DNA of 64,000 nucleotides from assembly GCA_037349105.1 (NCBI GenBank), contig JAYJMM010000086.1:1361501-1425500 (forward strand), given 5' to 3'. Of this stretch, positions 5,360 to 62,786 are shown one piece after another. The first letter of the stretch is position 1. Every line of letters starts with the position of its first letter. The position numbers were made by a program, and so were the translations under genes. Origin of the DNA: Limnomonas spitsbergensis (taxonomy: Eukaryota > Chlorophyta > Chlorophyceae > Chlamydomonadales). A model generated the notes under the pieces. It saw nothing but the letters and a program-made list of their open reading frames with translations. It had not been told where the DNA came from and did not search any database.

Positions 5360-8300
5360 ATGGCCCCCGAAAAACCTCCCAAGGGCAGCCATGGAGGCAG
5401 CGGCCCTGGCGGGGTTCAAAGCTTGGATCGAACCAGCAGCGTGTCCAGCGAAAGAGGAGACAAGGGAGCGGGCCTCAGACTCGCTGGATCGGGTTCGATA
5501 CGCATCTCCCATACGGGCAGCATAATGCGACAGTCGCAAACCGGAGGTACCTGCCTCTAATTCGCGCGCTTGTGTGTCGAGTCGTTTTCAAGGTTAACTT
5601 TCTAGGCATCTCCCGTGTCGAATTTCCCTTCCCCGGTCCAGGGAGACCTGACCTGATGCCCACCTTAAAACGCACGGCCACAGCATTTATAAAATGCGCG
5701 ATGCAAAGCAAGGAGTCCCGGGTAGTCGACCTGTCCCTCCTTGACTCTTGACTCTTGACCTTGACACATCGCAGGCAAGAACAGCAAGATTACAAGGAAC
5801 AGCTCACGTAGGTCCACACGGAGCGGCCTGGGGGGCGGAGACGGGGGTGTCCAGCTGCAGGTGGGTTTGCCGCATGGCGCTCCATTCTGCATGAAGGCTG
5901 CTTGCATGGCGCCAATGTTCACCCGCGAGATGGAGCTTATAATATGGACTGCATGGGGGATGAGAATGAGCTGTTTAGCTGCAGGTGTGGTAAATGTCTA
6001 GCAATGCATGTCAAATAACACCAGGGTCTATTTAGAGGGTTCAAGCTACACTTCAGCTACACACCAGCCTTACGCCAGCGGGGCTAAGTGAGCCAGCGGG
6101 GCTGAGTGAAGCAGGCCCTGTTGCATGGGATATGTCATGAGGGGGCAGCATGTGGGCTTGGGGGCAATGACAGTGCCGCCCAGCTGCAGGTAGGTTAGTT
6201 GCATGGCGCTGCAGTAATTATTTGTGCGTGTCCTTCAACACACTTCAGCTACACTTAATGGGGTATGAGAGAAGGGGCCATGCGGGACGTGGGGCATGAT
6301 AGAGGTAGGGTATGAGTGGGGGGAGGGGAGGCATGAGAGAGGAGGGCATGAGAGAAAGGGGGGCATGAAAGAGGGGGGGCACGAGAGAGGGGGGGCATGA
6401 GACCGCATGAGAGGGGGAGAGGGGGCATGAGAGGGGGAGGGGGCATGAGAGAGGGGGGGCACGAGAGAGGGGGGGCATGAGAGGGGGGGCATGAGATAAG
6501 GGGGGCATGAGATAGGGGGGCATGAGAAGGGGGGGTATAAGATAGGGGGGCATGAGAGAGGGGGGCACGAAAGAGGGGGGGCACGAGAGAGGGGGGGCAT
6601 GAGATAGGGGGGGCATGAGATAGGGAGGGCATGAGATAGGGGGTCATGAGAGGGGGCATGCTCCCTTTCTCACTCCCCTCTCCCACTTTGCTTCCATATG
6701 GCAGAAGACCCTCTCTGTGCCCCCTCTCTGTCTCTCGCTGCGATTGATGTCCCCCTCTGTCCCCTTATCCCCCCTCCAGGTAGTTGACGATCAAGGTGTT
6801 GACCGTACTCCGCGCCCACTGGTCTCCCTCGACCCTTCTGCCATGCGTTACCTGTCGGGCGGGAATGGCGTCAGCACGCCCAACAGTGACACCTCTGAGC
6901 TCCAGTTCCTGGCACGCATGCCGTCGGCGACATTCAGCAGGCAGGGCTGGCAGAGCGGGGGCACTAGCGGGACAGCAACGCCACACAGCGACGACTCGGA
7001 TTATGCCGCGACATGTGAGGGGGAGGAGGAGAGGGAGGGGGGGAGGAGAGGGAGGGAGGGAGGGAGGGAGGGAGGAGAAGGATGGGAGGAAGGAGAGGGA
7101 AGGGAGTAAGGGGTGGGAGGAAGGAGAGGGAGGGAGGGAGGGGGAGTGGGGGGGGGGGGGGGAGGGGAGGGAAGAAGGGAGGGTGGAAGGGAGAGAGGGA
7201 GAGGGGGAGGGAGAGGTGGGAGGGAGGGGAGGAGGAGAGGGAGGGAGTGAGAGTGATAAGAAGGAGCCCCCCTTATCTGTCCGACCATCCCTGTGCTCGA
7301 CTGCCTCTTGCTACCTCTGCCCCCCCCCCCCCCCTCTAACCAGGCAGCGGCCACGAGAGAGTAGAAGGAGCTCCCCCCCCCTGCATGACTGCCCTCGGCC
7401 CCTGAAGCCCCCCTCTTTTCCCCCCGGGCAGCGGCTGAGCAAGAAAAGAAGGAGCGTGCCAAGCTAGCCGCGGAGGTGGCTGCGGAGGAGGCAGCCGAGG
7501 CTGAGTCCAAGCGCCGCACTTTCTCCATGAACCAAGGCCAGGCGGAGCCGGAGCTGCTACAGGAGGTGGACCTGGAAAAGAATGTGTACATCACACTGGA
7601 GGAGACGCCAACACACTTTATCTATGTGGTGCCATGTGCGTGGGGGGAGGGGGCGACAGGGAGCGGGGCAGAGGGAGGGAGCAGGGGGGGGAGGGGGCGA
7701 CAGGGAGCGGGGCAGAGGGAGGGAGCAGGGGGGGGGAGGGGGCGACAGGGAGCGGGGCAGAGGGAGGGAGCAGGGGGGGGGGAGGGGGCGACAGGGAGCG
7801 GGGCAGAGGGAGGGAGCAGGGGGGAGGAGGGGGCGACAGGGAGCGGGGCAGAGGGAGGGAGCAGGGGGGGGGAGGGGGCGACAGGGAGCGGGGCAGAGGG
7901 AGGGAGCAGGGGGGGGGGAGGGGGCGACAGGGAGCGGGGCAGAGGGAGGGAGCAGGGGGGGGGGAGGGGGCGACAGGGAGCGGGGCAGAGGGAGGGAGCG
8001 GAGGAGAGGGAGGGAGCGGGGGAGTGGACAGGAGGGGGGGGAGGGGGCAGGAGGGAGGGCACCCGGAGGCTAGCAATCCCGATGATTCTCGAAACCGTGG
8101 AGGCGCCTTCCGCGCTTTAGAGAATCATTGGGGTCAAGTTGTCCCCCCTTTTGGCATTGCGCACTTACCGTCTGGGACCCAAATTGTGCTCGAGGAGGTT
8201 ACGCCGTGGCTCCTCGACCGCAGGTGCCCAAAACTAGCCCTTCACTTTGTGTTCCTCCACGTAGTGGGGGGCCCCTCCTGCAACGGGGGGCTCCCCACTA

Positions 8301-11300
8301 CGTGGAGGAACACCAAAACCCGCCCTCCACGATGGGGAGAAGCGGGGTTTTGGTGTAAGGGTGCTAGTTGTGTAGCCCCACAAATTTAATCTAGGTCCCT
8401 GACGGTAAGTGCGCGTAGCGGCAGCGACCAAGGAGAGGGATGAAGCGGTGGGAGCAATGGAGTGTTGGACACAGACATGAGCGTGCACATGTCGCTGGCG
8501 GAGACACCGATGAATTTGTCTTTGTGGTGCCATGTGCGCAGGGCAGGGGAGCTGGGGGGAGATGGGCAGGGACAGGGGAAGTGGGCAGGGGAGGTGGGCC
8601 TGGGTAAGACGTTGACTTGTCTGAAGAGACGCCGACACGCTTGATCTATTGTGGTGCCATGTGTAGGGGGCCCGGGGGGGGTGAGGGGGGCGGGAGCAGG
8701 AAGCGGGAGGGAGAGAGGAGTTGAGGGGGGGAGGGGCTAGGGGGTCCTCCAATCCTTCAAGCAAGCCATGTGCGCGGGCTGCACGGCCTCTCGACGAATC
8801 AGATATCGCCATGCCTCCCTTGATCAGCGTTCATTTCATTTGAAGCTGAGCAGCTGTCCACTTCGGATACACTAAGGCCACAGTTCGGCTACCTACCGGA
8901 CTCCGGCCAGCAGTTCTCGTGCAGGGCTTGCTAGGCTGCTGTTATTTTGCAGCATCCCGGTCTATTTCAAGGTTATGGGTTTAGGGTCAAGGTCTCAACC
9001 TTGAACTCGAAAACCTTTGGCCACTGGCTGCCTGCCGGTCTGGTTTGATCCCTTCAATCTGGGTTTAGGGTTTAGGGTTAAGTTTTTTTCTGGCAGAAGG
9101 ACGGCCCACCTACGAGGCCAAAGGCGCAGAGCCAGGGTGGTGTGTGCTCTGAATCAGCGTAGCTGATTGTCCAGGCGGGCCGCTACAAAAAAAAACCATA
9201 GGTCTTTTTGCGCGAAGGGCCCCCCAAAATGGCCTCCGCTACGCGTCCCTCCACATAGTGAGGGGACCCCACTGCTCTCAAGCGTTCTTGCTGGAGCGGA
9301 CTGTGAAAATGTCATGCAAGTGTCCGTTCCTGATGTTTGTTGTATGCACGTGCTCTTGCAGCTCACAAACGTCACTGTTGAAGCGGGTCCGAAACATGCA
9401 AAGCAAGCGCCCATTGATGCTGGTATTGTGTGTGTGTGTGTGCTCTGCTTGCTTTCAGGCGTGACTGTTGGAGCGGACACTGAAGATGCAAAGCACGTGG
9501 AGGATGCAAACAAGCGGTACACGGCACTGCTGACAGCAAAACAGGTGGGGTGAGGGTGTAGAGTTTAGGGTTCCCAGACCCCATCTGTCCATTCCCCTGC
9601 CCCCTGGCCATCTAAACCCCTCACCCGCGACCCCTAACCCCCTGCAGGCTGCCGACAAATACACCGACACCAAGACGCAGACCCCTCAACCGTCAACCCC
9701 AACCCCACCCCCCTGTAGGCTGCCGACAACTACACCGACGCGGAGACGCAGACCCTGAACCTGCTCAAGAAGAGCCGGGAGGTGCAGAGCGCTGTCCTGC
9801 GCACCCATGCAGTGGCCTGCCAAGCCACGGTCTGGGACATCACGGACACGTACCAGGCGCTGGAGGGCGCGGGGGTAGGTCAGGGGGATTCACACCCTCC
9901 ACACTCAGGGGTGGGTCAGGGAGGATTCACACCTTCCACACTCAGGGGTGGGTATGTAAGGATTGACACCCTCCACATTTAGGGTTGGGCAGGGAACGAT
10001 TCACACCTTCCACTCGAAGGGGTGGGCATTTAAGGATTGACCCCCTCCATACTTAGGGGTGGGTAGGGAAGGATTCACCCCCTCCACACTTAGGGCAGGA
10101 AGGGATTCCCTTTCCCCTGTTCCAAGACATCCCCCTGAGCCTTCCTGCTTACTTGACTGTTCTTATAACTGGCTCCTTACGTGCATCTGGTGAACCTGGG
10201 CCCAGCAGTCTGGGGGGGGTCCAGCAGTCTGGAGACGACCCAGCAGTCTGGGCCCAGAAGTCTGTGGTGGTCAACGCAACCTAGGCCGAACCACAAAATA
10301 GATGTTTCCGAACGCTCGTCTCCCTCTCCATACCTTCCCCCCCGTCAGTCCTGTTCTGTTGCCTCTCCATCCCCATCCGCCCCCAACCGCCCCCAACCGA
10401 CTAACTGCCCCGAGTCTCATCTCCCTGCTCCTTCCTGCTCCGCCCCACACTGCTCCTTTTCCCCCCGCTCCCACCCCCCCTCACACACACTGCCCCCTTG
10501 GTCCCGTTCCCCTGCATCCCCCTCCCCTCCGCCCCCTCCTCCCCTCAGGCCGCAGAGGGAGAGGACACAAGGATCGCGCAACCCTCGCCTCCTTCTTCAC
10601 CCTCACCCCCCTCCTTCTCTTCCCCTCCGGTCACTGTGGGCGAGGGGACAGGAATCTCCGTAAGCCTGCCCAGCATCGTCCCGCTGGCAGCCATTATCCC
10701 CACATCGCACCCCTTCTCTCCATCCTGCCTCTTCTCACCCCCTCGCCCCCCCGCCTTCCTTTTCCCGCCAGGCTGCCGAGGGCGAGGACGCGGGCATGGC
10801 CATGGGCTTGCCCAGCATCGGCCAGCTGGCGGCCGCCGCCGGTCGCGGCTCTCAGAACCCTCAGGGTGCCGGGGGCGGGGGCGGGGCCGCCAGCATTCGC
10901 AGCGGTGGGCAGAACAGCACCACGGCCAGCAGGCGTTCCACAGTGATGAGCGGGAGCGAGCTGCCGCGTGTGGAAGGAAGCTCGGCCAGTTTGATGGGAG
11001 GTGAGGGAGCTGCTTTTAGGGCTTTGACCAAAATATTACATTGCATACAGCTACAACTCAGCTGCGTCACACTTTTGTGCGGGAGCGAGCTGCAGCACGT
11101 GGAGGGGAATTCGACCAGACTGTTGGGAGCTGCACCCTGATGAGGGTGGGGGAGGGGAGGGGAGGGGAGCTGCACCCCGATGAGGGGAGGGGAGGGAAAA
11201 GGAGCTGCACCCTGATGAGGTGACGGGAGGGGAGCACTGCCTGTCTCAAGGTGCTTTGGGAACAATCGAGCTGCATCAGGGCCTGCGGCCAGGGGGGGCT

Positions 11301-14300
11301 GATGCAACATGCCCTGCTCTCCTAGGGTCACTGGCCGTACGCCCGTCAAGGTTAGGTCCCGATCGGCCCAGTGGCCGCCACCCAGCGGCCTGCCAAAGGT
11401 AGTCTGACACGCAATGATAAGAACACCAGATTCTTGACAGTCCTCCCCCCTCCTCACCCCGCCCTTTGAACTATCTGCCCCTGCTCGCAATGCGGCGCCC
11501 GTGCCTGGTCCAGATTTGCCGGGCGGCCTGCCCGAGCGCATCCCACTGAATGGCCCCGAGGATCTGATCAGCCCTGACCCGCCCACTACCTCTGTACCCT
11601 CTGAATCCCCCTCCGCTTCCTCTACCCTCTGACCTCTACCTCTCTGACCTCTGCGTCTCTGCCGTCTGCCTCTCTGACCTCTGATCTCTGCCTTTCTGAC
11701 CTCTGACCTCTGCGTCTCTGACCCCTGGTCTCTCAGCCTCTCTACTCTCCGACCCCTCTCCCTCTGTATCCTCTGCCTCTCTGGTATTCAGAGGCAGTGA
11801 GATTCTCTCTGCATCTCTGATGCATCATCTCCCTACCCTCGGCCTTTCTGACCCCTCTGCACATGATCACTGATATCTCTGCCCGTCTGATCTCTCTGAC
11901 CTTACAGCGCCCATTCCTGGTCCTGCTGCGCCCGGCAACCTGCCCGAGGATCTGATCGGCCCCGTCTCATCCTCTGGCCCCTGCCTTCTGACCTCTCTGC
12001 CTTATTGCCTATGGACCTCTGATCTCTCTGCCCTCGGTCTCTCAGACCTCAGACCTTACCTCTCTGCCTCTCTGACCCTGCAGCGCCCATTTCTGGCCCT
12101 GCTGCACCCGGCAACCTGCCGGAGGATCTGATCGGCCCCGTCTCACCCCTTGGCCTCTGCCTCCCTGATGTCTGACCCTGCAGCGCCCATTCCTGGCCCT
12201 GCTGCACCGGGCAACCTGCCCGAGGATCTGATCGGCCCCGTCTCACCCCTTGGCCTCTGCCTCCCTGATCTCTGACCCTGCAGCGCCCATTCCTGGCCCT
12301 GCTGCACCCGGCAACCTGCCCGAGGATCTAATCGGACCCGTCTCACCCCTTGGCCTCTGCCTCCCTGATCTCTGACCCTGCAGCGCCCATTCCTGGCCCT
12401 GCTGCACCCGGCAACCTGCCTGAGGGTGTCCCACTGGACGGCCCCGAGGAGCTGCAGGGTCCCGACCCACTGGTCAGTCTGAGGGGACTGCTGGAGGCGC
12501 TGGAGCTCATGGACTCGGCAGTGGCGCAGAACATGTACCTGCCCAAGCTGCTGCTGTACAGGTGGGAGATATACCAGATGTACAGGTGGGGGATGTACCA
12601 GATGTACAGGTGGGGGACGTTCCAGATGTACAGGTGGGGGATGTACCAGATGTACAGGTGGGGGATGTACCAGATGTACAGGTGGGGGGTGTACCATATG
12701 TACAGGGGGGGATGTACCAGATGTACAGGGGGGATGTACCAGATGTACAGGGGGGGATGTGCCAGATGTACTTGTGAGGGTGGGGGATGCACCAGATGTA
12801 CAGGTGGGGGTTGAATATGTACCTGCCCAACCTGCTGCATCACACGCAGGATTGTCATCTCGGCCCCAGATCCTGAACCCTAAACCCTTCACCTTTTACG
12901 CACCATGGCTCCGCAACAGGTGGTTCAGTCTGCTGTGGATAAAACGAAACCCTGAACTAAAAAACTTGAACCCTGACCTAATGACCCTGATCCCCCTGTG
13001 CACATCACGGCATCCAGTACGGGGTTCAGTACTCCAGGCTGCTCTAGGATACATCCGTTACATCCCAAGCCCGAAATCCTGAACCCCAAACTGTGATCCA
13101 AATCCGAACCCTAAGTGTATTTAGTGTCTGTACCGGTTTACGGGCACAAGTCCCATGCATCAAATGTGATGCCCCGCTGCACTGTAGAAGCTTCGCAAAA
13201 CTTCACAGCCCTGAACCCTTAACCTGGACCTCACACACACACACAGGGGTATCCAGCAAGTCGTCCAGCGCGCGCCCCCCACGCCGCCGGACGCCTCCAA
13301 GCTTACGGAGCGCGAGCTGGGCGGCAAGTCGCTGACCATGAACAAGGGCACCATGTCCCGCGCCCAGTCCCGCGCGGTGTCCCGCCAGAACTCGGGGACG
13401 AGCATCGGCGAGTCCGTGCGCTCTCGGGCGCCCGGCGGCGGCTTGGGTGGCGGCGGCGGCGGCGGTGGCGTAAACCGTGACGTGCTGAACGCTCTGACCG
13501 GTGGAGGCGGGCTCGCGCCATCAGCAAGCGTGCAAGGTGGAGGAGGAGGGGCAGGAGGGCGGGAGGGGAGTATAGGGTCTGCTTCGCAAGCGGACCGGCA
13601 GGGCGGGAAGGGCGACCAGGCGCCGAGCCTGGCGGAGAGCGCCTGGCCGGACGAGCTGCTGCAGGTGTGGCCCGCGGGTGGGGTTGAGGGTTTGGGGTTT
13701 TGTAAGGGTTGAACATGTGACGCGAATGGGCGGAGAAAGGGCGACCAGGCAACAAGTTTGGCAGAGAGTCCCTGGGCGGATGAAGTGATGCACGTGCGCC
13801 ACAAGTGGGAGGGTTCAGGGTTTAGACTCAAACGTCAAGCCTGACCGGACAAGCTGCTGCAGTTGCGCCTTGGGGGTGGGGCTTAGGGTTTTAGGGCTCA
13901 AGTCAAACCTCAAACCTGGCCGGAAGGGCCTCCAGCTGGCACACCTCACACAAATGGGTTTAGGGTTGAGATTCACCCCAAACGGTAGGGTTGAGGGATA
14001 AGGGTTGACGAACCCTGATCAGAGGTTGAGCATGCTGCGGGTTTGTCGGACGAGGGGCGTCCCCAAGGCCGCCCAGAACCGGGTCATGCCCTGAACCCTA
14101 AACCACGCTTTGGGTGAAATGTTGTGAGGGGGGTAAGGCTTCAACCTTGACCCTGAACCCTAAACTGGGGAGTACCCTGAGCCCTAAACCATGGCTGCCT
14201 CTTAGGTTCCTCCCCATACCTGATTTTTGATTCCATGTGCTTCACTCTTGGTTGGCTGTAGGATCTCGCTGACCTTGGCCCTGACGGCGTTCCACGCATC

Positions 14301-19100: not shown

Positions 19101-19104
19101 TGCT

Positions 19105-20400: not shown

Positions 20401-20449
20401 TGTTGCATGCCAGCTGCACTTCGATGCCAGGAACATCCCCTGTTTGTTT

Positions 20450-29018: not shown

Positions 29019-29065
<47 letters not shown>

Positions 29066-51000: not shown

Positions 51001-54000
51001 TGCAGCCCCACCACCTGTTCCCGCAACGCTGCCGACCATTCCTTGCTCTCTTCCAACTGCCCATACATGTTTGCCAGCCCTTCTGCTCCCCCTCCTCCCC
51101 CCTAAAACACACACACACCTGCGCCTGCAGGCTCACGACTTGCTCCCGCAGCGCCGCTGACCGTTCCTTGTTCTCCTCGAGCCGCCCGTACATCTCTGCC
51201 AGATCTGCCTCCATGGCCCGCTGCGTCTCGCTCCGTCCCTCGGACAGCGCTGCATGTGAGCGTACGCTCTGGCCGAGCGACTGCACCTGCTCCAGCGCGT
51301 GACGCTCACGCTGCCGGAACTCCTCCACTTGTATCGCCTAAACCAGTAAAATTTAGGGCCAAGGTTAAGGGTGAGGGTTCAAGTTTAAGACTAAAACCTG
51401 AATACTAAGGGTCAAGGTTAAGATTCTAAGGATGAAGGATAATAAGAGACTGAGGATGAAGGATAAGGATGGACCCCTAACTACTAAACTCTGCTTGAAG
51501 TCCCCCACTCGCAGCACCTACACCAGGGGCGGTAGGATTCACGATCCAGGTCATGGTTTCAACCTTGTTTAGACCCTAAACGTGGTCATAAACATCCATG
51601 GATCATGCAATCACGCCACAGAGGCACAGACGCCCTGCTCTGTAGCCAATCATGCAATCATGAACTGATGTCCTGCTCTCATGCCAAACACACACCCTCC
51701 TCTTCTTGGCAGACCACCAGACCACCTTCCTGAACCTGAGGGACGGTTAGTTGCCCATTTTATGTTAATGTGTGGTCCAGCTACACTTCGGCTGCACTTC
51801 AGCAGCAGGCAGGACTCGATGCAGCCCCCAAAGGAGGTCTGGTGTGCACTGAAGTGAACACTGCTGGCCAGGACAGAAGACCTGCTCCTGGCCTGGCCCC
51901 AGACCTTCTTCTTCCAGCTTTGTCGCTACCTGATCGTTTCGAAGGGCAGCTTCCGAGCTCGCTTTTCGAGCATCCTTGCCGAACAGGCACAAGGCGTACA
52001 TGAAGACGGACACAGGCAGCGAGAGCAAGGCGTGGATTCTATACCCAAGGGATCTATCAGAACGATGGACAGGCGGTTCTGCTCGTCAATTCAAATGAAA
52101 TATTAAAGACATACTCGGACACCAAACAAAAGCGGGCGGAAGGGTTGTATGTTCACGGGTTCCTCGGTCAGGTATACATGCGCTGCGGTCGTGGAAGGAC
52201 CAGGTCGTGGAAGGAACAGATCGCTACGCTGGGATGCCTCAACGCGCAAATACAGGCATTGCGTGAGCACTCCTTCGGAACTACGGCGAAGGCATGTCCG
52301 CCTCGAAAGCTGCTTGCATCGAACGCCTCAAGCCCACCGATCTTTCCGCAGGGCGCACTAACCGAGGGTTCAAACCCGAGGGGCTGTGCTCGAGGCGATC
52401 ATTTGTTTAAATTGCATGCCCCTATTTCAGCGCTCGCCCGTCGGCCGAGATTTTGTTGCATCAGAGTGCGAGAAAAAGAGGAGGCCTTTCCAGCCCAAAC
52501 TTCCAGCAGTATGCAGCCTTGTCTAGTTGTCTCTATATTCCCCTGTCCTCTCATGTGCTCAGTGCTCCATTCATGTTCCATCCATGTGCTATATCGACTA
52601 TGCATGGTCCATTCGTGTGCTCCACCCTCCATGCATGTGCTCTATTCTCCATCCAACCATACGCTCCATCCGTCCAAACATACGCTCCATCCCCCCATGC
52701 CCGATCCAACCATGCGCTCCATGCTCCAGGCATGTTCCATCCTCCATGCGCTCCATGAGCCCGTGGTCCACCCATGAGCTCAGTGCAGTCCCTTCCCATG
52801 TTCCTCTTGAGATCACAAAACATGCCACCCCGCATCACTCTATATCTCAGGGTACTTCAGCTACACTTCAGCTACATTACAGCCTGACTTCAGTGGCAAG
52901 GTGCACGCCAAAATAAACACTGCGAAGTGCCCACCCACCCCACCGACCTCATGCGCTTTCCTCTCCAGTTCCTCCCTCCCTCAAAACAGCCCCCCCCCCT
53001 ACAACACTCCTTAATCCCTTGACTCAGCATCCACCATGTCTCATGACCATGACTCAGCACCCACCATGACTCAGCATGACTCCTGACCCAGCACCCACCA
53101 TGACTCATGCCCATGACTCAGCACCCACCATGACTCATGCCCATGACTCAGCACCCACGATGACTCATGACTATGACTCAGCACCCACTATGACCCAGCA
53201 TGACTCATGACCATGACTCAGCAAGACTCATGATCATGACTCAGCACCCACCATGACTCATGACCATGACACAGCACCCACCATAACTCTCCGCTCCTCC
53301 TCCAGCTCCTCCACTTGTCCCTGCATCGCATGGCTGTCCCGGACCTGCCGCCGTATGACGCTGAGCTGCTGCTGCAGCTGTCGCGTCTGCTCCTGCGCCT
53401 CCGACTGCTCGCCCTGCCGCGTCTGCAAGCTGCGCTCCAGGATCAGGTTGTGCTGGCGCAGCTGTTGCAGCTGTGCCTCGTAGCCCTGGGCAAGGTTTAG
53501 TGAAAGTGTCAAGCCATCTGAGTTGTTAGGGTATATGAGCAGTCAAGCCATCTGAATTGTTAGGCCATATGGGCAGTCAAGCCATCTGAATTGTCCGGCC
53601 ATATGAGCAGTCAAGCCATCTGAATTGTCCGGCTATATGAGCAGTCAAGCCATCTGAATTATCAGGCCATATGAGCAGTCAAGCCCTCTGAATTATCAGG
53701 CCATATGAGCAGTCAAGCCATCTGAATTATCAGGCCATATGAGCAGTCAAGCCATCTGAATTATCAGGCCATATGAGCAGTCAAGCCCTCTGAATTATCA
53801 GGCTATATGAGCAGTCAAGCCATCTGAATTATCAGGCCATACGAGCAGTCAAGCCCTCTGAATTATCAGGCCATATGAGCAGTCAAGCCATCTGAATTAT
53901 CAGGCCATATGAGCAGATCTAAGGGTGCTTCAGCTACAATGCAACCACATCACGAGGGAGCTCGCTGCCAGGGGCCTAAGGGCCTGCCGCATAGGCCGTC

Positions 54001-57000
54001 AACCGTTCAAAGCTGGGTCCACATTGGCCTGCCCATTGCTCCTTGTCACAGGGCCTAGATAAGGGGTCAACAGGTTGGGGCGCCTCAGCCTCTTGGGACC
54101 CCAAATGGAGCGCTTGGAGGTGCCAAGCAGGATATCATTACAATGATGCAGGGTAGCTCACCTAGTGCTACGGCCGAACGGGTGGCTTCCTTAATTCACA
54201 CCTCAGGGCGCATCGTTTTATTCGTTTATTTATTTATACACACCGGGAGTGATTAAGGTCAAGGGCCCCAGGCTACTTGGCAATCAGCCAGGGTTCTAGT
54301 TGATTCCCACCTGCTGCGCTTCTCTCAGACTGTCATGTGCGTGCTGCAGCTTATCCTGCAGGCCGAACACCTCGTCGCGCATTGCCTTGGCGTCCAGCTG
54401 TAGCTGCGCCCGCTCAGATCCGAACTCCGCTTGTACCGCTGCCAGGCGGGACTCTACCTTGGACAGCTGCGACAGGAGAGATGGGGCAAAAGTTAGCAGG
54501 GGCAGACAGCAGCAGCAGCACCAGTAGCAGTAGTAGTGACAACAGTAGCAGTAGTTGCAACAGAAGCAGTAGCAGCAGTAGCAGCAACAGTAACATTAGC
54601 GGCAACAGCAGCAGCAGGAGCAACAGCAGCAGCGCCAAAGGTATCAGCAGCAGGTGCAGAAGGAGTAGCAGGAGCAACAGGAACAGTAGTAGAAGTAGCA
54701 GCAGTAAACGTACAGAGAGCACAAGTTCCGATTTTAACCTAATCCCTTAACCCTAACCCTAATCCCTGCCCACCTGGGAGGCCTCATGGAACGTACTGCT
54801 GGCAGTCTGCTGCTGTGAGACCTTGATTTCAGCCTGCGGGCAGGTCAGAAAAGATATCCAGGTGGGGACACAAACACACGGGGAAAACTCCGGGAGAATG
54901 GATATGATCGTAAACTGGTATCCTTCATGTTGGCTCTATTGCCCCTGCCGTAGATTTGATTTGCCTTCCCTCGGGCATCAAAACACCATTTCTTTTGGGA
55001 CTGCCCTCAGGGCAAACTGTTGACAAAAACTCTTGAATTTCCCACTGAAAACTGGCGCCAACAATGGATAATGAGTATATTCATGGATCCCACAATCAAA
55101 CAACGTTAATCATGAGGGAAGGCAAAGCAAATCTACGGTTTGCATTAAAATCTAATAACGTGAGGAGGTATGCTTGTCGTGCAGGTTCCACGTCACGGAA
55201 TAAAATCAATTGCGGCATGCATTGGAATCTAATCATGTGCGGAGATATGTCCGTTCTGCAGGCTACATTCTCCGCTCAAAGCCGCATGCCTGAGCCATCA
55301 CAGAGTAGAGGGTGGAACCACTGTCCATGCATTGGGTGCTTCAGCTACAATTCAGCTACATCACTGCCTGCGGCCATGAGGGCCGCGGACAGCCATATGC
55401 CTGTTTTGCTTGAGCCACCAGCTGGAGGTAACCTAACATTTGCCTCAGGGTTCAATGCTCGAAACAAGTAAATCAACCAAAGGCAGTGTGATCCATGTGG
55501 GGAATCGCCAGTGCTGTTGCAAGAGTGCACCATGCCAACTTTGGGCGACACCACCGAGGTGCCGGGCGGCCAGCATGGAGGTGCCGAGCGGCCAGCACCG
55601 AGGTGCGGGGGCCACCACCAAGGTGCCGGGCGGCCACCACCACCGAGGTGCTTTCGACGAGACAATGGCCAACCTATGGCTGGCGCTTGGAAAGCAGGGT
55701 ATGCTGCCCTAGGGTTCAGGTTATAGGGGCTAGGGTTTCTTCCTTGGGTTTAAGGTAAAGGGTTTCTATCTGGGTTCAGGGTTAATGGTGAAAGGTTTCA
55801 TCCTTGGCCCCAGGCTGAGAGACGTAGCTGAAATCCAAAGTCTGTAGGAAGCAAAATACTTTGAAACGGTGACAGCCACTGCCACCACCTCAAATTCTGC
55901 CACCACCTCCTCAAAGTCTGACCCCCATCACCTTGACTCCAGTATTCACACTTCACACACCAACAGATGTTTTCAGTCCTAAAAGTAAAGGGCACTGCCC
56001 TTGACCATTGACACCTCAAGCTTTGACGTTAGGGTATGGGGTTCAGGGTCCAGGGTTTAAGATATAAGGTTTACCCTGAACCCTGCTGCACTCCATCAGC
56101 ATTCAAAATTCAATTTTTGCATTAGGTTCTAGGGTTCAGGGTTCAGAATTAGGGTTCACCCTGAACCCTGTTGCACACCTTCAGCATTGACACCTCGAGC
56201 TCTGCCGAGGCCAGGCTCTGCCTCAGCTCCTCCGCGCCCTGCATCAGCTGCGCGGACGCCAGCTCAGCGCCGCCGCCCCCCCGCCACTCCCGCCCGGTCA
56301 ATGCCAGGTACAACGAGAGCAGCTGTGCCCCGGCGTTGGCGGCGTTGACTTCGGCTTCCTTGGCCTGTTCAGGACAGGCAAGACAAACATTCGTAAACTA
56401 TTCTTGATCGGGGGGAAATGACGCACCAGGCCATCTGCATGCCTGTGTAAGGCAGGCAAGACAGATATGTGTGAACTACCAGTATATGTGTGAACTACCA
56501 GTACCAGTAGTCCTGATTAGAACACATCAGGCCATCAGGCCGTGGCTTCAAAAAAAATAGTCCACATTGCCGTCCACATTTAGAACCCCGGCCGGCCTGA
56601 ACCCGTACAAAGATACCCAGATAGGCAAAACCCGGCTACTTGGCTAACCCCAGCCCTCCCCTGCCATCAGCCTAATCCGCCAGCAGGGCAGGCGGGGCAG
56701 GGCATGACACCTTTCACCAGTTGACTGCAGGGCAGAGCAAAACAACTTTTGATTCAAGGACCGGTACCAGTGACAATTAACAGGGGCATCAGGCCCCCCA
56801 AAACAGGCGCATCAGGCGATGACACCAGCCTCCTCGTTGTGCATGACAAATGCCGCCACAGGGCGCATCTGACAGAGAGCACTCAGGCCACCCAGCAGGG
56901 TTCAGGGTTTACTGGGGGATGTTCAATGCTTAGAGTTCAAGGTTTACTAGGGGATGTTCAATGCTTAGGGTTCAGGTTTTATTGGGGGTGTTCAAGGCTA

Positions 57001-60000
57001 AGGGTCAGGGTTTACTGGGGGATGTTCAATGCTTAGGGTTCAGGGTTTATTGGGGGTGTTCAAGGCTAAGGGTCAGGGTTTACTGGGGGATGTTCAATGC
57101 TTAGGGTTCAGGGTTTATTGAGGGTGTTCAAGGCTAAGGGTCAGGGTTTACTAGGGGATGTTCAAGGCTAAGGGTCAGGGTTTACTAGGGGATGTTCAAT
57201 GCTTAGAGTTCAAGGTTTAATAGGGGATGTTCAATGCTTAGGGTTCAGGTTTTATTGGGGGTGTTCAAGGCTAAGGGTCAGGGTTTACTGGGGGATGTTC
57301 AATGCTTAGGGTTCAGGGTTTATTGGGGGTGTTCAAGGCTAAGGGTCAGGGTTTACTGGGGGATGTTCAATGCTTAGAGTTCAAGGTTTACTAGGGGATG
57401 TTCAATGCTTAGGGTTCAGGTTTTATTGGGGGTGTTCAAGGCTAAGGGTCAGGGTTTACTGGGGGGTGTTCAATGCTTAGGGTTCAGGTTTTATTGGGGG
57501 TGTTCAAGGCTAAGAGTCAGGGTTTACTGGGGGTGTTCAATGCTTAGAGTTCAAGGTTTACTAGGGGATGTTCAATGCTTAGGGTTCAGGTTTTATTGGG
57601 GGTGTTCAAGGCTAAGGGTCAGGGTTTACTGGGGGGTGTTCAATGCTTAGGGTTCAAAGTTTACTGGGGGGTGTTCAATGCTTAGGGTTCAGGGTTTATT
57701 GGGGGGGTGTTCAATGCTTAGGGTTTAGAGTTTACTGGGGGAGTTCAAGGCTTAGGGTTCAGGATTTATTGGGGGGTGCTCTAGGCCCAGGGTTCAGGAT
57801 TTATTGGGGGGTGCTCTAGGCCCAGGGTTCAGGTTTTATTGGGGGTGTTCAAGGCTTAGGGTTCAGGGTTAAGTCTGTTGAACTCTCGCAGGGGATGTTC
57901 AGACGAGGGTGGGTGGGTCGAGAGAGAAGATTGGCAGACATGATACTTTCTGTTACGTCAAGTGTTTCCTGAAGCTTGCGCCAAACCATCTTTGGGGGGC
58001 TACCTAGCGGTGATCGTTTAGGTTGATAGGGACCAATCCCTGAATAGCCCACGAACAGTGGCCTAAGCCATCAAGCATGGCTCCATGCACTAGGCCCCAT
58101 CAAACGTACGCCTCGATGTAGCTCACATGTAGCCAAAGTGCGCTGAAGTAAAGAGTGTTGTTCAGTACTGTTTCATGCTCCAGGTTCTTCAGGAGCACTT
58201 CAGTATGCCAGGATAGGTTCGGCTAAAACCACAAATCACAAACTTCCTGCCAAGCAGCCACAATTTTTATAGCCCTGCTGCTGCTTCCTACCTGGCGGCC
58301 CATCTCTTCGTGATTGAAGTCCACCTGCCGCAGCAGCTTCGAGTTCTCTTCCCGCACCCGCCTCAGCTCCGCCCGCACTTCCCCGAGCTGACCGTCCATC
58401 TCCGCCATCATCGCATCAAGCTCTGACGACAGCATCTGGCAACGGACGCATCCGCCGCCGCCCGGCGGCGGCGCTACCGCCGCGACGGCGGCGGCGACGG
58501 CCGCCGCCGTCTCCGCAGCGTGTGCGGCGCGGCGCTGCTCGAGCGCCTGATGCAGCCGCTCCCGCTCGCGTACTGCAGCGGCCGCTGCCGAGCGGGTGTC
58601 GGCCAGCTCTGCGGCCATGCTAGACAGCCGACCCTCCTGCTCGTGGAGTTGGGATGTCAGGTTGGAGCAGCGCCCACAGGAGGCGGAGGCCTCCCCAGCG
58701 CCGTCCCGCTGTCGCGGCGTCAGCGGCAGGGTTGCCTGCTTGGCGCGCTGCAACCGTTCCACTTGTTGCTGCTTTTCGATGAACTGAGGGGAGGGGAGGG
58801 GGCGGAAGCTAGCTTAGCTCACCAGGGGGAGGGGGCGCAGCGTTTCAGCCCCAAGCTGCGCTGTACCCTTCACCGCTACCTCCCACCAGCTGGATTATTA
58901 GCGCACAGCGCTCGGCTGAGCCTACTTTGGGGCATAGGTGAAAGTAACATGTACTTGATCTGCCTTTCCTTGAGTACCAGTGAGGTCTTTTTTTTCTAAT
59001 GCCACCCAGAGGACAAATTTCGACTACCACTCTCGATTTCTGACACAAGACTGGCATCAATGATCGACAAAAAGTATTTTAATAAAATCCCAAAGCATAT
59101 GTAAAGAAAGCGGTATCTTCACCCTAAGCCCCTTTCTTGCAATCTTCCCATCTTCAACGCCGACTCCCACTGACCTGCCGGGTCTAGGGTCCAAGATTCA
59201 TACCTGCTCATACAAAGCGTCGTACTCAGCCTGCATCTGCTGCTTCGTCCGCAGCCTCTCCTCCTGCAGCCTCACCACCTGCTGCTCCTGCTGCCTGTTT
59301 TGTTGCTGCAGTTGGCGCACTAGGACGGTGTTTCGCGACTCCGCCAGGTTAGCAGTGGAGGAGGATGAGGCAGCGGGTCCGGAAGGGCCTTCGGAGAAAC
59401 TCCTGGCTGATCGGGACTCTAGGGGCACAGCAGAGGCAGCAGAGGCAGCAGGAGCAAGCGGCGACGGCGGCGGCGGAGCCGCCGCCGCTGCTGCCTGCTG
59501 CTCCCGCTGGTGCTGCTGGTGCTGCGTCAGGAAGCTTTCAAAAGGGATGGGTGCACGCTGTTGCTGCTGCTGCTGGAGCTGTTGCTGCTGCAGGTCCTGC
59601 TGCCTGCGTCTGGCCTGCTCCTCGGCCTTCAGCCTCTCGAGGAACTTGTGCCCAATGCCTGCAAAGTCCGTGTCGCCGTGCGCTGCAGCCGCCGCCGCCG
59701 CCACGGCAGCAGCGGGGCCAGGCGCCCTGCCCGCCCGAGCCTCAGAGGGCAGTGCTGAGCTGGATCCCGCACCTCCACCGGCCTGGGGAGGCGGCAGCGT
59801 CCCAGGCCTCCGGGCGTCCGTCGCCGCCCCCCCCATCTTCGCAGTGGCCGCGAGCGTGTCGATGCTGGACTGGAGCGCGGAGGACATGCCCATCAGTCGC
59901 TTGCTGCTGGGCAGGGTCGTGCTCGATTCCTGGGGGGCGGGCCTGCCGGAGCTGTTCGGCGCGGGCCTGCTAGACCTGTCCGGTGCGGGCCTGCCGGGGC

Positions 60001-62786
60001 CGTCCGGCGCGGCATCGCCGTCGAAAGCGATGCGGCGGGCTGTGCTGGTCAGGTCCCTGGCCCCTAACACCGCACCTCCAACGTCCATGTCGAGGCTGGG
60101 GCTGACGCGCATGTCCTACAACATAAAACAGGTTGATACACGCACACAAATATCCGCACATTTGTTTTACGGGTTTGACTTGGATTATTTACCCCAGATT
60201 TGCAATGGAATGACGTCAAGGAAAAGGCATCAGGGGGACAAGCTTAAACTGTACAGGTGAACATGGTCGTTGTCTAAATTTCATACAACCTTGCATAACG
60301 GTAAAAAATGTTACCAATTCGAGAGTTTTCATCAAACATAGCCATTCTGCAGTGTAAAGACATTGTCCATCTACTCACTGCGTTGAGTTGGTCCTTGGAG
60401 CGTTGTGTGTCCTCAAACATGGATGTCCGACCGCGGATCTTGCCCATGCTCTCTGGTCGGAATGAATCAGGGAAAGTTGAATTAAGGCAGCAGATTGAAT
60501 GAAGGAAAGGTGAATGAAGGCAGATTTAATGAAGGAAAGTTGAATTAAGGCAGATGAATGAAGGAAGGTTGAATCAAGGGCCAGAGTGCCTTGCAGCTGG
60601 TGCAGCTGCTGCTTGTAATGCACCAGCAGCAGCAATAGGAATAAAGGAAAGTTGAATCAAGTCAGATTGAATCAAGAAAAGGTGAATGAACGAAAGCAGT
60701 AGGAGACACAGCACCATGCCCTGTCCACTCAATGTCCTGTGGGAGGGGGGAGGGACCACCAGACTACTCACTTTGAGCGCTTTGCAGCAGCGTGTCCTGC
60801 AGCTGGTGCAGCTGCTGCTTGTACTGCAGTAGCTTGGCAGCTGGAACCTGGCCGCCCCCCGTTGACCTGCCACGGCCTGCATCGGCCGCCGCGTCGCCCG
60901 CACCCGACGTCGCATGCGGCGGTCTGGAAGCGCTGGCACTACGCTTGACCTGCTCCGAAACGTGTGCGAGGCTTGAGAGGACCTGGGTCAGGTCCACAAC
61001 AGCCCTGCTCCGAGGCACGCTTGAAGGCCTACGCCCACAGATAGACACACACACACACAAATACATGATTCTCTCTTAAGCGTTCAGAGACGAAATCACC
61101 CAATCGGGTGTAAATGTAGAGCATTTAACATCACAGTCCAAGTATTGCAGTCCATGGATCACCCTCCATTCATCTCCTTCCACACATCACCCTCCAATCC
61201 GACATGCATCACACTCCATGCATCACACTCCATGCATCACCCTCCATGCATCACACTCCATGCATCACACTCCATGCATCACCCTCCATGCATCACACTC
61301 CATGCATCACCCTCCATGCATCACCCTCCATGCATCACACTCCATGCATCACATTCCATGCATCACCCTCCATGCATCACCCTCCATGCATCACACTCCA
61401 TGTATCACACTCCATGCATCACCCTCCATGCATCACACTCCATGCATCACACTCCATGCATCACACTCCATGTATCACACTCCATGCATCACACTCCATG
61501 CATCACACTCCATGCATCAGACTCCATGCATCAGACTCCATGCATCACTCTACATGCATCACACTACATGCATCACACTACATGCATCACACTACATGCA
61601 TCACACTCCAAGCATCACACTCCATGCATCACACTACATGCATCACACTCCATGCATCACACTACATGCATCACACTCCATGTATCACACTCCATGCAAC
61701 ACACTCCATGCAGCACAGTATCACACTCCATGTATCACACCCCATGCATCACACTCCATGCATCACACAACACGTATCACACTTCATGCATCACACTCCA
61801 CTGTGCAGGATGATGACACATCAATCCATGCACTGATGCAGCGCCCAGCGCAGCCTGAGTGCACGGAAAACTAGACAAAAGTGATTTGTTCCCCGCAACG
61901 CCAATGTGGTCCCCGGTACCTGGAGGTGGCCCCACTCTGACCCGAAACGCGGAGGGCCTCTGCGCTAGCAGCCGCGGCTGAGCTGGCCTCCAGCCTCTGT
62001 CGTATGCTGGATGCGAGGCTTAGCAGCGTGTCGCCATTACCCGAGCCTGTCTGTTTTGTAGCTGAGGAGGCCAGGAGGCTGCTCCGGGAGCTCAGCAGTG
62101 AGTCCCCGTTCCCCGCGCCCGGCTGCTGTTTTGTGGCTGAAGAAGCCAGGAGGCTGCTCCGGGAGCCAGCGGCTGCCCCGGACCTCAGCTGATGCTGCTG
62201 TGAGGAGGCCTCTGCATGCGCAGGGCATGCAAGGCATCATGGGTGAGGCGGTCTCTTTGTTCAGGGCTGGGACCGGCGGGGCATGCAAGGCTGCATGAGT
62301 GTGGGGCATGGAGCGTGCAAGGGGCATGGGGGCGGGGCCCACTGGGGGGGATACAAGGGGAACGGCATGTATGTGCATGAAAGCCCAGCATGGCTTGCCC
62401 CTTCCTGGAGCCATGCAGGCACAGATGTGTGCATGCAGCCCAGCATGGCCCGACCCTCCCTAGAGCCATGCAGTGACAGCTCACCCTCCAGCAGCCTTTC
62501 CAGGTGCCTCACTGAAGACGCATGCTTTGAATCAGAGGAGCTGAGCGTTCTTGCGCTGCTGGGATCCTTCTCAGCTGACTTCTGGGTAGCCTGTGCTGGC
62601 CTGGATCCTTGCTGGGCGATTTGGTTCAGCTGAGAGCATGCAGTGTTTTGAGTGCAGTTGGTAGTTGCAGCTGCCACGTTCCTCCTTGATGCTCGCTTTT
62701 TGAAATGGCACCGAGTTGTATCAACTTTGTTTTCTCACCTGTTGCTCGAGTCTGCTGTACTTCCGTAGTTGGTCCTCGGATGTCAT
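39076..62786 (-). CDS. Long coiled-coil protein, family not recognised
   Basis: Twenty-one exons join in phase on the minus strand: 62739-62786, 62485-62629, 61920-62211, 60772-61028, 60379-60452, 59204-60115, 58292-58783, 56179-56364, 54774-54833, 54311-54466, 53282-53485, 51119-51337, 49393-49707, 48540-48659, 48149-48232, 47050-47127, 46115-46282, 45517-45642, 43591-43752, 39634-39846, 39076-39261. The product is about 1498 residues. It starts MTSEDQLRKYSRLEQQLNQI (in-frame TAA upstream) and ends REVHRLMSLDGNSGDMY. Residues 65-250 are Ser/Ala-rich, 273-576 Gln/Ala-rich, and from about 540 to the end the protein is almost continuous heptad coiled coil (VEELEEERR, LREQVVSLQAQ, QERLMEELKEREEELMGAEG). 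From exon 5 on, every intron is phase 0. Coiled coils of this size are typical of centriole, cilium-base or Golgi scaffolds; which applies cannot be told. The exon 8 donor (56179, or 15 bases earlier) and the exon 2/3 join are the least certain. Confidence 0.82.
39290..39490 (-). repeat. two decayed copies of the last coiled-coil exon's 5' part
   Basis: Upstream of the exon start at 39261, plus-strand CTCCATGAGCTCCTCCATCA then GACACTCCTTCTCCGACTCA (39310-39350) and CACGGCCACCTGCTGCTGGG then CCTGACAGCAG (39452-39482) repeat exon segments and the acceptor. Both have stops. Confidence 0.8.
40600..42330 (-). repeat. 21-bp minisatellite of about 82 units, coding-like VGGLRD(Q/E)
   Basis: On the minus strand units read CTGAGGGATCAGGTGGGGGGG or CTGAGGGATGAGGTGGGGGGG. 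They would encode a seven-residue repeat VGGLRDQ/VGGLRDE in the same strand as the surrounding gene. The array is split into four frames (breaks near 41297, 41592 and 42179, each at a change in C-run length). Every unit holds CAG or GAG followed by GTGGGG, that is, a potential donor. Because related GGGAACAG/GTGGGAGG units start right after the exon donor at 43590, I treat it as an intronic splice-junction-derived array, not an exon. Confidence 0.9.
42340..42515. repeat. dispersed CAGCTACA-type element, inverted long copy
   Basis: The reverse complement carries GCTACATGTCAGTTGGACTC, CGGCCTCTGGCCAGAGGCCC, GTGGCCAGCCATGCTGCTTT and GGCTGGTCCAGGTGGGGTCT, matching 22760-22925 block by block. Confidence 0.8.
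42535..43260. repeat. 32-bp minisatellite in the coiled-coil gene
   Basis: About 22 units of CTCACCCACCCACCCGCCTG and TTCCCTATACCC, with TTGCCTTTGCCC variants. The period of 32 rotates through all three frames, which explains three overlapping Pro/Thr/His-rich open frames. Confidence 0.95.
43365..43590 (-). repeat. donor-side repeats after coiled-coil exon 19
   Basis: The exon ends GGACTGCAGGCTCAG with donor GTAGGG at 43590. Beyond it, minus-strand units CTGAGGGAACAGGTGGGAGG and GGGGCTGGAAGAAGCAGGTG alternate three to four times. Confidence 0.75.
43780..44130 (-). repeat. three copies of the coiled-coil exon 19 5' half, about 117-bp units
   Basis: Plus-strand GCGGATGGCCAGTTACTCCT, CCTTGTCCACCACACAGAGG, TGCAGCACATCATGGTCAGA and GCTGGAGGGCTGTATA repeats the first 80 bases of exon 19 and its acceptor. 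The copies carry the same in-frame stop (TAACTGGCC on the minus strand) and are more like each other than the exon. Confidence 0.9.
44320..44945. repeat. direct repeat with ATTCACACCTGAGG/AACTGCCTTCCC blocks
   Basis: Two related segments, about 44335-44480 and 44740-44945, share CGAACTGCCTTCCC, AATTCACACCTGAGG and AATTC-(A/G)ATATAC/TGTATGG. Between them lies a short copy of the dispersed CAGCTACA family (44565-44630). A four-fold CATTTTGCATGG run sits at 44855-44903. Confidence 0.6.
44985..45300. repeat. 86-bp tandem repeat, about four units
   Basis: Units contain CAGCGCTTATCAGGGTTCAC, GTTTTCGACCCTAATCTTAA and GTTAGGATCAGGGTTTTGAG. The spacing is regular but there are no spacers of independent sequence, so it is not a CRISPR. 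Confidence 0.92.
46283..46690 (-). repeat. about 61-bp minisatellite built on the coiled-coil exon 17 acceptor
   Basis: Seven units of GTGCTGGATCTTATGGGAGC, AAGCAAGGGTAGAGGGTTCA and GGGATTCAGAT (plus strand) begin at the acceptor of the exon at 46282, whose own border reads TTGCTGGATCTAGTGGGAGC. The repeated core is therefore the exon edge plus AG. Confidence 0.9.
47205..47245 (-). repeat. copy of the coiled-coil exon 16 acceptor
   Basis: Plus-strand GGCCAGACTGCTGAGCTACT then GGTTGAGAGACTGCAGATGT repeats the exon border at 47127 (GCCAGGCTGTTGAGCTGCTG, GTTGAGAGACTGTGGATGT). Further weak copies are near 47775-47810 and 47822-47850. Confidence 0.8.
47283..47760. repeat. 12-bp minisatellite TTCAGATCTCAG/TTCATGTCTCAG
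   Basis: About 40 units alternate between the two variants, giving SQFRSQFMSQF-type open frames on the plus strand. It lies in an intron of the coiled-coil gene. Confidence 0.95.
48720..49160 (-). repeat. four decayed copies of the coiled-coil exon 14 5' edge
   Basis: The exon border at 48659 (plus: TTGTCCCGCTGCTGCCGGAG, CTTCTCCACCGACGCGCTCA, ATGCCTGCGC) recurs near 48727, 48857, 48995 and 49065 with TCTACGGA(T/C)(G/A)C(G/A) and GCCTGC/CCAGC. Each is followed by AGCGT(A/G)GGG. Spacing is roughly 70-140 bp. Confidence 0.85.
49735..49980. repeat. about 74-bp tandem repeat upstream of coiled-coil exon 13
   Basis: Units with GCACGACATACTTTATTCGG, TGCAGGGGGAAGGGGAGACA and CTGCAGCCATTATTCTGTGC repeat two to three times. 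Confidence 0.85.
50090..50465. repeat. 50-bp minisatellite, about seven units
   Basis: Near-identical units of GCAACAACAAGGCTTGCTGC, AACAGGTTGGTTGGTTGGTT and GGTGGCGCAA. A preceding GGCCTATGGTCGGTGGCATA suggests it grew from an edge of the dispersed repeat family. Confidence 0.95.
50985..51075 (-). repeat. copy of the coiled-coil exon 12 3' edge
   Basis: Plus-strand CAGCGCCTGCAGCCCCACCA, CCTGTTCCCGCAACGCTGCC, GACCATTCCTTGCTCTCTTC and CAACTGCCCATACATGT repeats the end of the exon at 51119 (codons EMYGRLEENKERSAALREQV) over about 80 bases, without an open frame to a donor. Confidence 0.85.
53030..53281 (-). repeat. minisatellite at the coiled-coil exon 11 donor
   Basis: Plus-strand units CATGACTCAGCACCCACCAT and GACTCATGC repeat about nine times up to the donor at 53281. 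CACCCACCAT is the reverse of the exon end ATG plus GTGGGTG, so the donor lies in the last unit. Confidence 0.9.
53515..53915. repeat. 35-bp minisatellite, about 12 units
   Basis: Units of TCTGAATTATCAGGCCATAT and GAGCAGTCAAGCCA, with early units carrying TTGTTAGG or TTGTCCGG. They lie upstream of the exon starting at 53485. Confidence 0.95.
54500..54720. repeat. imperfect CAG/AGT trinucleotide tract
   Basis: A run of AGCAGCAGC, AGTAGCAGT and ACAGCAGC variants follows the acceptor of the exon at 54466. It creates Ser-, Ala- and Leu-rich open frames that I do not accept as genes. Confidence 0.95.
56885..57880. repeat. about 34-bp minisatellite with telomere-like core, about 28 units
   Basis: Alternating units GTTCAATGCTTAGGGTTCAG with GGTTTACTGGGGGAT and GTTCAAGGCTAAGGGTCAGG with GTTTATTGGGGGT fill much of coiled-coil intron 7. 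Confidence 0.95.
60480..60700 (-). repeat. GAATGAAGGAAAGTTGA array and a copy of coiled-coil exon 4 3' edge
   Basis: Short degenerate units (GAATGAAGGAAAGTTGAAT, AAGGCAGATT) flank 60583-60637. There, plus-strand GTGCCTTGCAGCTGGTGCAG then CTGCTGCTTGTAATGCACCA repeats the end of the exon at 60772 (codons LQYKQQLHQLQDTL). Confidence 0.8.
61140..61810. repeat. 14-bp minisatellite CATCACACTCCATG
   Basis: About 46 units with CCCTCC, CTACATG and TGTATC variants. His/Met/Ser/Thr-rich open frames occur in all plus frames, as expected for a stop-free 14-bp unit. Confidence 0.95.

Follow-up and report, generated by a model that had tools for sequence, protein, structure and literature searches.

Do introns lengthen by taking up copies of the exon ends that adjoin them? 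The question is raised by a stretch of 64,000 nucleotides from the genome of the chlamydomonadalean snow alga Limnomonas spitsbergensis (contig C86, positions 1361501-1425500; hereafter the window), in which the introns of three genes, encoding DNAI4/IC138, the Sec1/Munc18 family protein SLY1 and a coiled-coil protein, had been predicted to hold decayed copies ("echoes") of neighbouring exon edges together with their own donor or acceptor sites. This pattern was confirmed; it is real, well controlled and extreme in the window. Local direct duplication that ignores splice junctions, or mildly prefers them, while splicing keeps to the exon-side sites, is probably its source.

Exon-edge echoes in the window

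The genome examined comprises 260,226,709 bases in 124 contigs; the published assembly is given as 260.248 Mb in 124 contigs, and 43,157 polished IsoSeq isoforms are reported with it (PMC11228838). Gene models were built with our own spliced protein-to-DNA aligner, which allows GT/GC-AG sites and three intron phases and uses generic splice scores. The queries were proteins of Chlamydomonas eustigma, the closest protein matches of the window genes: DNAI4/IC138, SLY1 (g12536) and the coiled-coil protein (g12535). The models contain 13, 9 and 24 exons, respectively, and together 43 introns; the first exon is weak in all three models, as are several of coiled-coil exons 5-9. Eight introns were dropped, and the remaining 35, each with a GT donor and a length of at least 150 bp, provided 70 exon edges for testing. 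The DNAI4 edges in 5360-9458 fall outside this set, as the N-terminal exons are absent from the C. eustigma model and intron 1 was among those dropped.

When 80 exon nucleotides (nt) from each edge were compared with all 35 introns, the adjoining intron ranked first at 24 of the 70 edges, with 2 expected, and a comparison of the same 80 nt with the own intron alone outscored all 60 shuffles at 24 of 70. The similarity is confined to the near edge of the exon: in exons 180 nt or longer, pieces of 60 nt ranked first in 13 of 33 cases if taken from the near edge, but the far edge and the exon middle (one case each) and the reverse complement of the near edge (0/33) stayed at chance level.

A strict catalogue was then compiled with queries combining at most 120 nt of exon with 30 nt of intron. 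It contains 58 echo copies at 28 of the 70 edges and in 23 of the 35 introns, so that the prediction of echoes in most introns of usable size holds for about two thirds of those tested. Each of these edges has one to nine copies. Because the threshold is derived from random shuffles, the number of edges varies slightly between runs (29 and 27 in two reruns with new shuffles). Copy identity spans 0.69 to 1.00, with a median of 0.785, and most copies carry many substitutions. Four of the 28 edges (the SLY1 intron 5 acceptor, the SLY1 intron 6 donor, the coiled-coil intron 2 acceptor and the coiled-coil intron 14 donor) rest partly on the intron flank, having failed against shuffles on exon bases alone. 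Under the same strict search, exon edges produced no match when swapped into the introns of the other window genes (0/210), nor when compared with non-adjacent introns of their own gene (0/70).

Most copies include the splice site. In seven printed alignments the real and the copied junction appear together; five of them continue for at least 20 bases past the splice site, and those for DNAI4 intron 10 and coiled-coil intron 15 end near it. Both bases of the splice site could be aligned in 53 copies, and 42 of these retain GT or AG; the claim that echoes supply decoy splice sites stands on this count. The companion statement that every copy is joined to a splice site was too broad, since 3 of the 28 best copies match exon bases only. 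Echoes reach 16-94 nt into one exon edge; no whole-exon copy with both splice sites was found with these queries of at most 120 exon nt.

Local direct repeats and their placement at junctions

Direct repeats spaced no more than 500 bp apart make up 51% of the modelled intron DNA in the window, 20% of the exon DNA and 16% of the rest, whereas inverted repeats within the same distance make up only 1% of the intron DNA and 1-2% over the three classes, which bears out the predicted same-orientation, local copying across exon-intron borders. With a 3-kb limit, repeats cover 54% of the tested introns; 28% of intron bases, or about half of the repeat bases, belong to repeats with one side extending at least 15 nt into an exon. 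No repeat pairs lying mostly in exons were found in this survey of the window. The settings used also flag old internal duplications: cover was 0.22 in an E. coli carAB stretch and 0.014 in a gcvP stretch.

Repeat cover stays level as the junction is crossed, at 0.35-0.43 over the final 20 nt of exon and 0.36-0.41 over the initial 10 nt of intron, and fades within approximately 100 nt of exon, to 0.01 at 100-150 nt inside. Such a profile is expected of local duplication that is blind to the border, because copies placed outside the exon do no harm, whereas those inside it alter the protein.

Duplication might instead start preferentially at exon-intron borders, favoured by transcription- or splicing-coupled breaks, replication pausing, or GC or tract structure. 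Repeat clusters cross a junction more often than expected under random placement, both in the window genes (25 of 45, against 13.1) and in six genes outside it (7 of 16, against 4.5). In a pair of GOGAT paralogues, for which no random expectation was computed, 5 of 6 and 7 of 14 clusters cross. The relevant passages of a survey of Chlamydomonas reinhardtii and Volvox carteri likewise report tandem repeats to be densest in introns and denser near intron-exon junctions (PMC3887541). Against this stand CarB, with 1 crossing cluster of 7 where 2.0 are expected, and the cover itself, which is lower in the first 40 intron bases (0.33-0.46) than beyond base 75 (0.47-0.58). Moreover, a constrained exon keeps old crossing duplications recognisable for longer, which inflates their count. 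This bias is insufficient as the sole cause, as an excess persists in the window among young clusters, those with 88% identity or more (8 of 14 crossing, against 3.9, standard deviation 1.6; outside the window 1 of 3, against 0.8). Given an excess that extends to young clusters, a junction preference of up to about two-fold is possible. That splice junctions are the preferred sites of small direct duplication in this lineage, with introns growing from their borders and splicing having to choose the outermost of several near-identical sites, we regard as rather unlikely; if true, such border growth would be a mode of intron expansion that could account for how long introns are in Chlamydomonadales.

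Originals, copies and decoy splice sites

Under local duplication with retention of the exon-side site, one copy should remain functional while the other decays, as the original prediction held, and this is what the comparison with C. eustigma shows. Among codons that differ between the exon and the best echo at each of the 28 edges, the exon agrees with C. eustigma in 98, the echo in 11 and neither in 40; over all copies the counts are 219, 16 and 61. The exon is thus the constrained, conserved original and the intron copy the decaying one. Decay by stops and frameshifts is less general than had been claimed, with a net frameshift in 16 of the 58 copies and stops at 17 of 862 aligned codons, and many copies taken alone are still open. 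The claim does apply to the predicted products: use of the copied site would lead to an in-frame stop for 38 of the 42 site-keeping copies, to a frameshift for the other 4 and to an open in-frame product for none. Consequently, in these introns only the outermost sites leave the protein intact, including at acceptors, which have intact AGs upstream.

The frequent retention of GT and AG might indicate that echoes function as mutually exclusive or alternative exon ends, or as splicing regulators. Per edge (24 edges), splice dinucleotides are retained at 0.69, exon dinucleotides at 0.59 and intron-flank dinucleotides at 0.69. The excess of splice over exon dinucleotides is 0.11, with a bootstrap interval of -0.05 to 0.26 that spans zero, and special retention of splice dinucleotides was accordingly rejected. 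Since all 42 site-keeping copies would break the product, the echo codons drift from the conserved protein, and the copies are partial and mostly differ between the GOGAT paralogues, a functional role appears improbable.

Where an edge has several echoes, these are nearer to the exon than to one another at 10 of 15 such edges, which rules out that all echoes are members of one array and makes several independent copyings likely. Amplification has also taken place: echoes in coiled-coil intron 21 show 0.99 identity to each other, and head-to-tail arrays are present at edges of this intron, of SLY1 introns 4 and 6 and of DNAI4 intron 4. A single echo is found at 13 of the 28 edges.

Occurrence outside the window

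Eight genes outside the window, on five contigs, were modelled, as a non-random sample. FAP52, eS1, GMK and NAGS were picked by eye from one arbitrary 200-kb stretch of contig C39, and CarB, GcvP and two GOGAT genes were chosen for having E. coli homologues (PFL had no match). Introns with a non-GT donor, short length or weak flanking exons were dropped (eS1, 1/7; CarB, 5/23; NAGS, 5/10; GcvP, 1/17). The strict catalogue lists echoes at 22 of 192 edges, in 19 of 96 introns and in six of the eight genes, with no match in the swap control (0/384). GcvP has a clear echo of 87 exon and 72 intron bases, CarB shows weak signs, and copies with splice sites were seen in NAGS and in another gene of the C39 stretch, which we take by eye to be kinase-like. 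Among coding-like open reading frames, an edge echo was detected in 16 of 68 in the C39 stretch and in 19 of 36 in the window. Alignments were displayed for 8 of these 16 C39 frames, hand-chosen, and all eight exceeded the display cut-off.

Echoes thus occur beyond the window, are patchy across the genome and are enriched in the window genes. A uniform genome-wide rate is rejected, with 27 of 70 edges in the window against 22 of 192 outside (Fisher p 3e-6). FAP52, eS1 and GMK together have 1 rank-one edge of 26, and local repeats make up 0.8% of their intron bases, compared with 33% in the remaining C39 stretch.

A pair of GOGAT paralogues

A search with E. coli GltB recovered two closely similar GOGAT paralogues, on contigs C41 and C119, and a third gene on C109; the comparison covers the C41/C119 pair. 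These two have matching exon structures, an exon nucleotide identity of 0.909 (2,339 of 2,572 bases) and, across the 26 exons that align well, a protein identity of approximately 97%. The models have 29 and 28 introns, of which 22 form pairs (one of them shorter than 150 bp) at matching places in both genes, with or without repeats. Their total length is 9,196 bp in C41 and 18,108 bp in C119, and local direct repeats represent 6,691 bp (75%) of the net difference of 8,912 bp. Over the 22 pairs, the length difference tracks both the repeat difference (Spearman 0.68) and the non-repeat difference (0.58). Of the 6,691 bp, 5,657 bp come from two pairs, those of C119 introns 11 and 25; intron 11, the larger, is without any echo, and the model of the exon preceding intron 25 is weak (12 of 29 identical). 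Junction-crossing clusters hold about half of the repeat bases in each gene (920 of 1,880 in C41; 4,244 of 8,571 in C119).

Echoes are found at 5 and 10 of 44 edges in the two paralogues; of the 13 echo positions, 11 are confined to a single paralogue. At sites that differ between the paralogues, the best echoes agree with their own exon 30 times, with the exon of the paralogue 8 times and with neither 6 times, which argues that copying was local and took place mostly after the split. The echoes therefore originated mostly after paralogue divergence, and local repeats are the bulk of the two largest intron-length differences. The pair is useful for dating intron growth. The youngest repeat units in the genes modelled include those at the C41 GOGAT intron 15 acceptor, the DNAI4 intron 4 acceptor and the GcvP intron 16 donor.

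The direction of copying could in principle be the reverse, with intronic tandem repeats exonised and exon edges being copies of intron repeats, and some arrays, in SLY1 introns 6 and 4, indeed extend no more than 2-16 nt into the exon. The echoed exon ends are, however, conserved in C. eustigma, and they are conserved between the GOGAT paralogues, where the repeat is mostly present in just one of the two; for most edges this direction is very unlikely.

How the introns may have lengthened

Under local, largely junction-blind duplication, introns would keep gaining short direct duplications, mostly at a spacing of about 65-250 bp. A duplication spanning a junction would copy 15-95 bases from the end or start of the exon, along with the donor or acceptor, and place the copy on the intron side. 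The spliceosome would presumably stay with the exon-side site, leaving the protein unchanged and the intron longer while the copy decays, and some copies may turn into the unit of a tandem array. Direct orientation, locality, the splice site in most copies and the exon as conserved original are the observed parts of this scheme. For the molecular step, replication slippage or unequal exchange seems preferable to end-joining, because inverted copies are nearly missing; the same scarcity disfavours displaced templated insertion as a general rule.

Several observations weigh against this explanation. In 11 of the 28 best echoes fewer than 20 intron nt are aligned, and residual similarity beyond was found in only 1 of these 11. 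As simple tandem duplication predicts more flank similarity, some echoes may have arisen not head-to-tail but as short, displaced copies, and the scarcity of matching flank is not fully accounted for. Within the aligned stretches the intron flank is no more diverged than the exon part, contrary to plain neutral decay of both intron copies. A gradient of age with distance, resembling growth rings, is monotonic at the DNAI4 intron 4 acceptor (identity 0.99, 0.87, 0.83, 0.80 and 0.71 with increasing distance from exon 5) but was rejected as a rule, with an overall permutation p of 0.15 over 15 edges. FAP52 and GMK have no echo in the strict catalogue, and in the other 20 GOGAT pairs recognisable repeat accounts for only 1,034 of the 3,255 bp (32%) of length difference. 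Finally, the exon edges are defined by homology and splice consensus alone, not by RNA. The concentration of the paralogue length difference in two introns has slightly lowered our confidence in the explanation, which we still consider likely.

On these facts the larger claim, that such copying ranks among the main routes by which introns of this genome grow, is too strong. Few edges outside the window carry echoes, introns of up to about 1 kb exist nearly without local repeats (FAP52, eS1, GMK), two introns dominate the GOGAT length difference, and about half of the repeat bases in the GOGAT pair belong to clusters that cross no junction. What can be maintained is weaker: border-crossing local duplication contributes to intron growth and is one way in which introns lengthen.

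An artefact of gene models, low complexity or assembly can be dismissed almost entirely: although the edges come from our own aligner with generic splice scores, four catalogue edges lean on the intron flank and the published assembly is described as PacBio long reads polished with Illumina reads (PMC11228838), the swap controls of window and outside genes together gave 0/664, the range of copy identities with their many substitutions is unlike assembly duplications, and the same picture is seen at conserved edges of other genes.

Relation to known systems

Tandem genomic duplication is a recognised route of intron gain, according to the relevant passages of a review that cites Gao and Lynch 2009 and Hellsten 2011 (PMC3443670). 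It resembles the present case in being a local direct duplication of gene sequence that makes duplicate splice sites. Here, however, the introns lengthened already existed, to judge by the 22 at matching places in both GOGAT paralogues, and the junction itself was duplicated, not the exonic AGGT of that account. As for the intronic tandem repeats of green algae, the passages concerned (PMC3887541) mention neither exon ends or splice sites in the repeat units nor intron growth. Exon copies in introns of the same gene are also known from tandem duplication of exons, including mutually exclusive ones (PMC9013439), and Exonize records "inter-boundary" and "intronic" exon matches (PMC12343006). Unlike in those cases, the copies here are exon ends with one splice site, and using them would break the frame.

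Introners are reported to involve, similarly, mass production of intron sequence in one genome (PMC9860276), but they are related introns inserted in many genes, whereas echoes were found only beside their own exon. Introner-like sharing was not seen for exon edges in introns of other genes (the swap controls above), a search that did not extend to intron bodies genome-wide. Minisatellites or variable number tandem repeats describe the arrays at some echo edges but not the edges with a single echo, nor the best echoes that end near the junction (11 of 28). Repeat-filled introns are also reported from GC-rich avian genes (PMC6792250) and an earthworm metallothionein gene (PMC12783039). Craig et al. 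leave open the cause of long introns in core-Reinhardtinia, the volvocine relatives of C. reinhardtii, and regard the mechanism as likely ancient (PMC8226300); Limnomonas falls outside the group that they studied. Among the matches listed from the openly licensed PMC literature, judged by titles and abstract openings, we recognised no description of junction-spanning copies as a mode of intron growth.

Border-crossing duplication is a concrete process whose events can be counted, and its recent examples can be dated by comparison with frozen exon copies and with paralogues. The echoes also amount to naturally occurring sets of splice sites that compete at known spacing and identity, and they lend themselves to testing how a spliceosome selects among near-identical sites. 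Where annotation pipelines mask the copies or misread them, exon edges may be misplaced.

Features of the window and other observations

Table 1. Modelled genes, echoes and associated array, with positions in the window
Feature	Position	Strand	Details
DNAI4/IC138 gene, modelled part	9165..18742	+	13 exons (first weak); spliced alignment to C. eustigma; PDB match to C. reinhardtii IC138
DNAI4 exon 3 start	9618..9684	+	one echo with acceptor, 67 nt, 84% identical, AG kept, 34 bp upstream of real acceptor
DNAI4 exon 4 start	10524..10692	+	two echoes: 10606-10692, AG lost; 10524-10577, AG kept
DNAI4 exon 4 end	11047..11132	+	one echo, donor lost
DNAI4 exon 5 start	11474..12325	+	five echoes, AG kept in four
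DNAI4 exon 5 end	12813..12851	+	echo, donor lost
DNAI4 exon 6 end	13728..13891	+	two echoes: 13728-13823, GT kept; 13839-13891, GT lost
DNAI4 exon 7 end	14499..14770	+	two echoes, 94 exon nt each, GT kept
DNAI4 exon 8 start	15200..15599	+	three echoes, 40 exon nt, AG kept in 3/3
DNAI4 exon 11 start	17177..17220	+	echo, 43 exon nt, 89% identical; match ends at junction
DNAI4 exon 12 end	17989..18031	+	echo, GT kept
DNAI4 exon 13 start	18315..18424	+	echo, AG kept
SLY1 gene (Sec1/Munc18 family)	26057..35420	-	9 modelled exons; spliced alignment, C. eustigma homologue g12536
SLY1 exon 7 end	28208..28262	-	echo, 52 exon nt, GT kept, 488 bp into intron
49-bp array	29473..30720		25 copies; starts 2 nt inside SLY1 exon 6 at donor; units with donor-like GTGGGTGG sites
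SLY1 exon 6 end	30097..30509	-	donor-bearing copies inside the 49-bp array; exon part weak, 0.56-0.65 identical
SLY1 exon 6 start	31108..31348	-	three echoes, 21-31 exon nt, partly resting on intron flank
SLY1 exon 5 start	32685..32880	-	two echoes, 55-56 exon nt, AG kept
SLY1 exon 4 end	33080..33866	-	nine donor-bearing copies, largely the 67-bp array
Coiled-coil gene	39079..63115	-	24 modelled exons (exon 1 and several of 5-9 weak); C. eustigma homologue g12535
Coiled-coil exon 24 start	39309..39475	-	two echoes, AG kept
Coiled-coil exon 22 start	43804..44131	-	three copies with acceptor, 66 exon nt, 117-bp spacing, AG kept in 3/3
Coiled-coil exon-20 stretch	46004..46042	-	copy of 26-65 nt inside donor edge, short of junction
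Coiled-coil exon-20 stretch	46722..46776	-	copy, short of junction
Coiled-coil exon 19 end	46869..46925	-	echo, GT kept
Coiled-coil exon 19 start	47202..47821	-	two echoes: 47202-47271, AG kept; 47757-47821, AG lost
Coiled-coil exon 17 start	48725..49038	-	three echoes, AG kept in two
Coiled-coil exon 15 end	50985..51077	-	echo, 86 exon nt, donor lost
Coiled-coil exon 14 end	53035..53209	-	two copies next to this exon end, GT kept, partly resting on intron flank
Coiled-coil exon 11 end	55999..56120	-	two echoes
Coiled-coil exon-4 stretch	60582..60633	-	copy of 16-70 nt inside donor edge
Coiled-coil exon 3 start	62090..62151	-	echo, acceptor lost, partly resting on intron flank

Coiled-coil intron 22 (3.7 kb), for which the catalogue lists no exon echo, is in good part filled by very long minisatellites (21 bp x 82 at 40601-42322; 32 bp x 22 at 42530-43235). 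The SLY1 and coiled-coil genes adjoin at 26057-63115 of the window, and their homologues in C. eustigma bear consecutive numbers on one contig of 95,885 bp, which suggests that the order of the two genes is conserved.

The C39 stretch includes reverse-transcriptase-like open reading frames at approximately 108.6, 130.8 and 157.3 kb, which, going by their motif, are probably retroelements. At approximately 98-106 kb it contains many tandem repeats, with units coding for a KKQREGTYKQVL-like peptide. Window positions 1000-1648 match C39:6851417-6852077 with 68% DNA identity.

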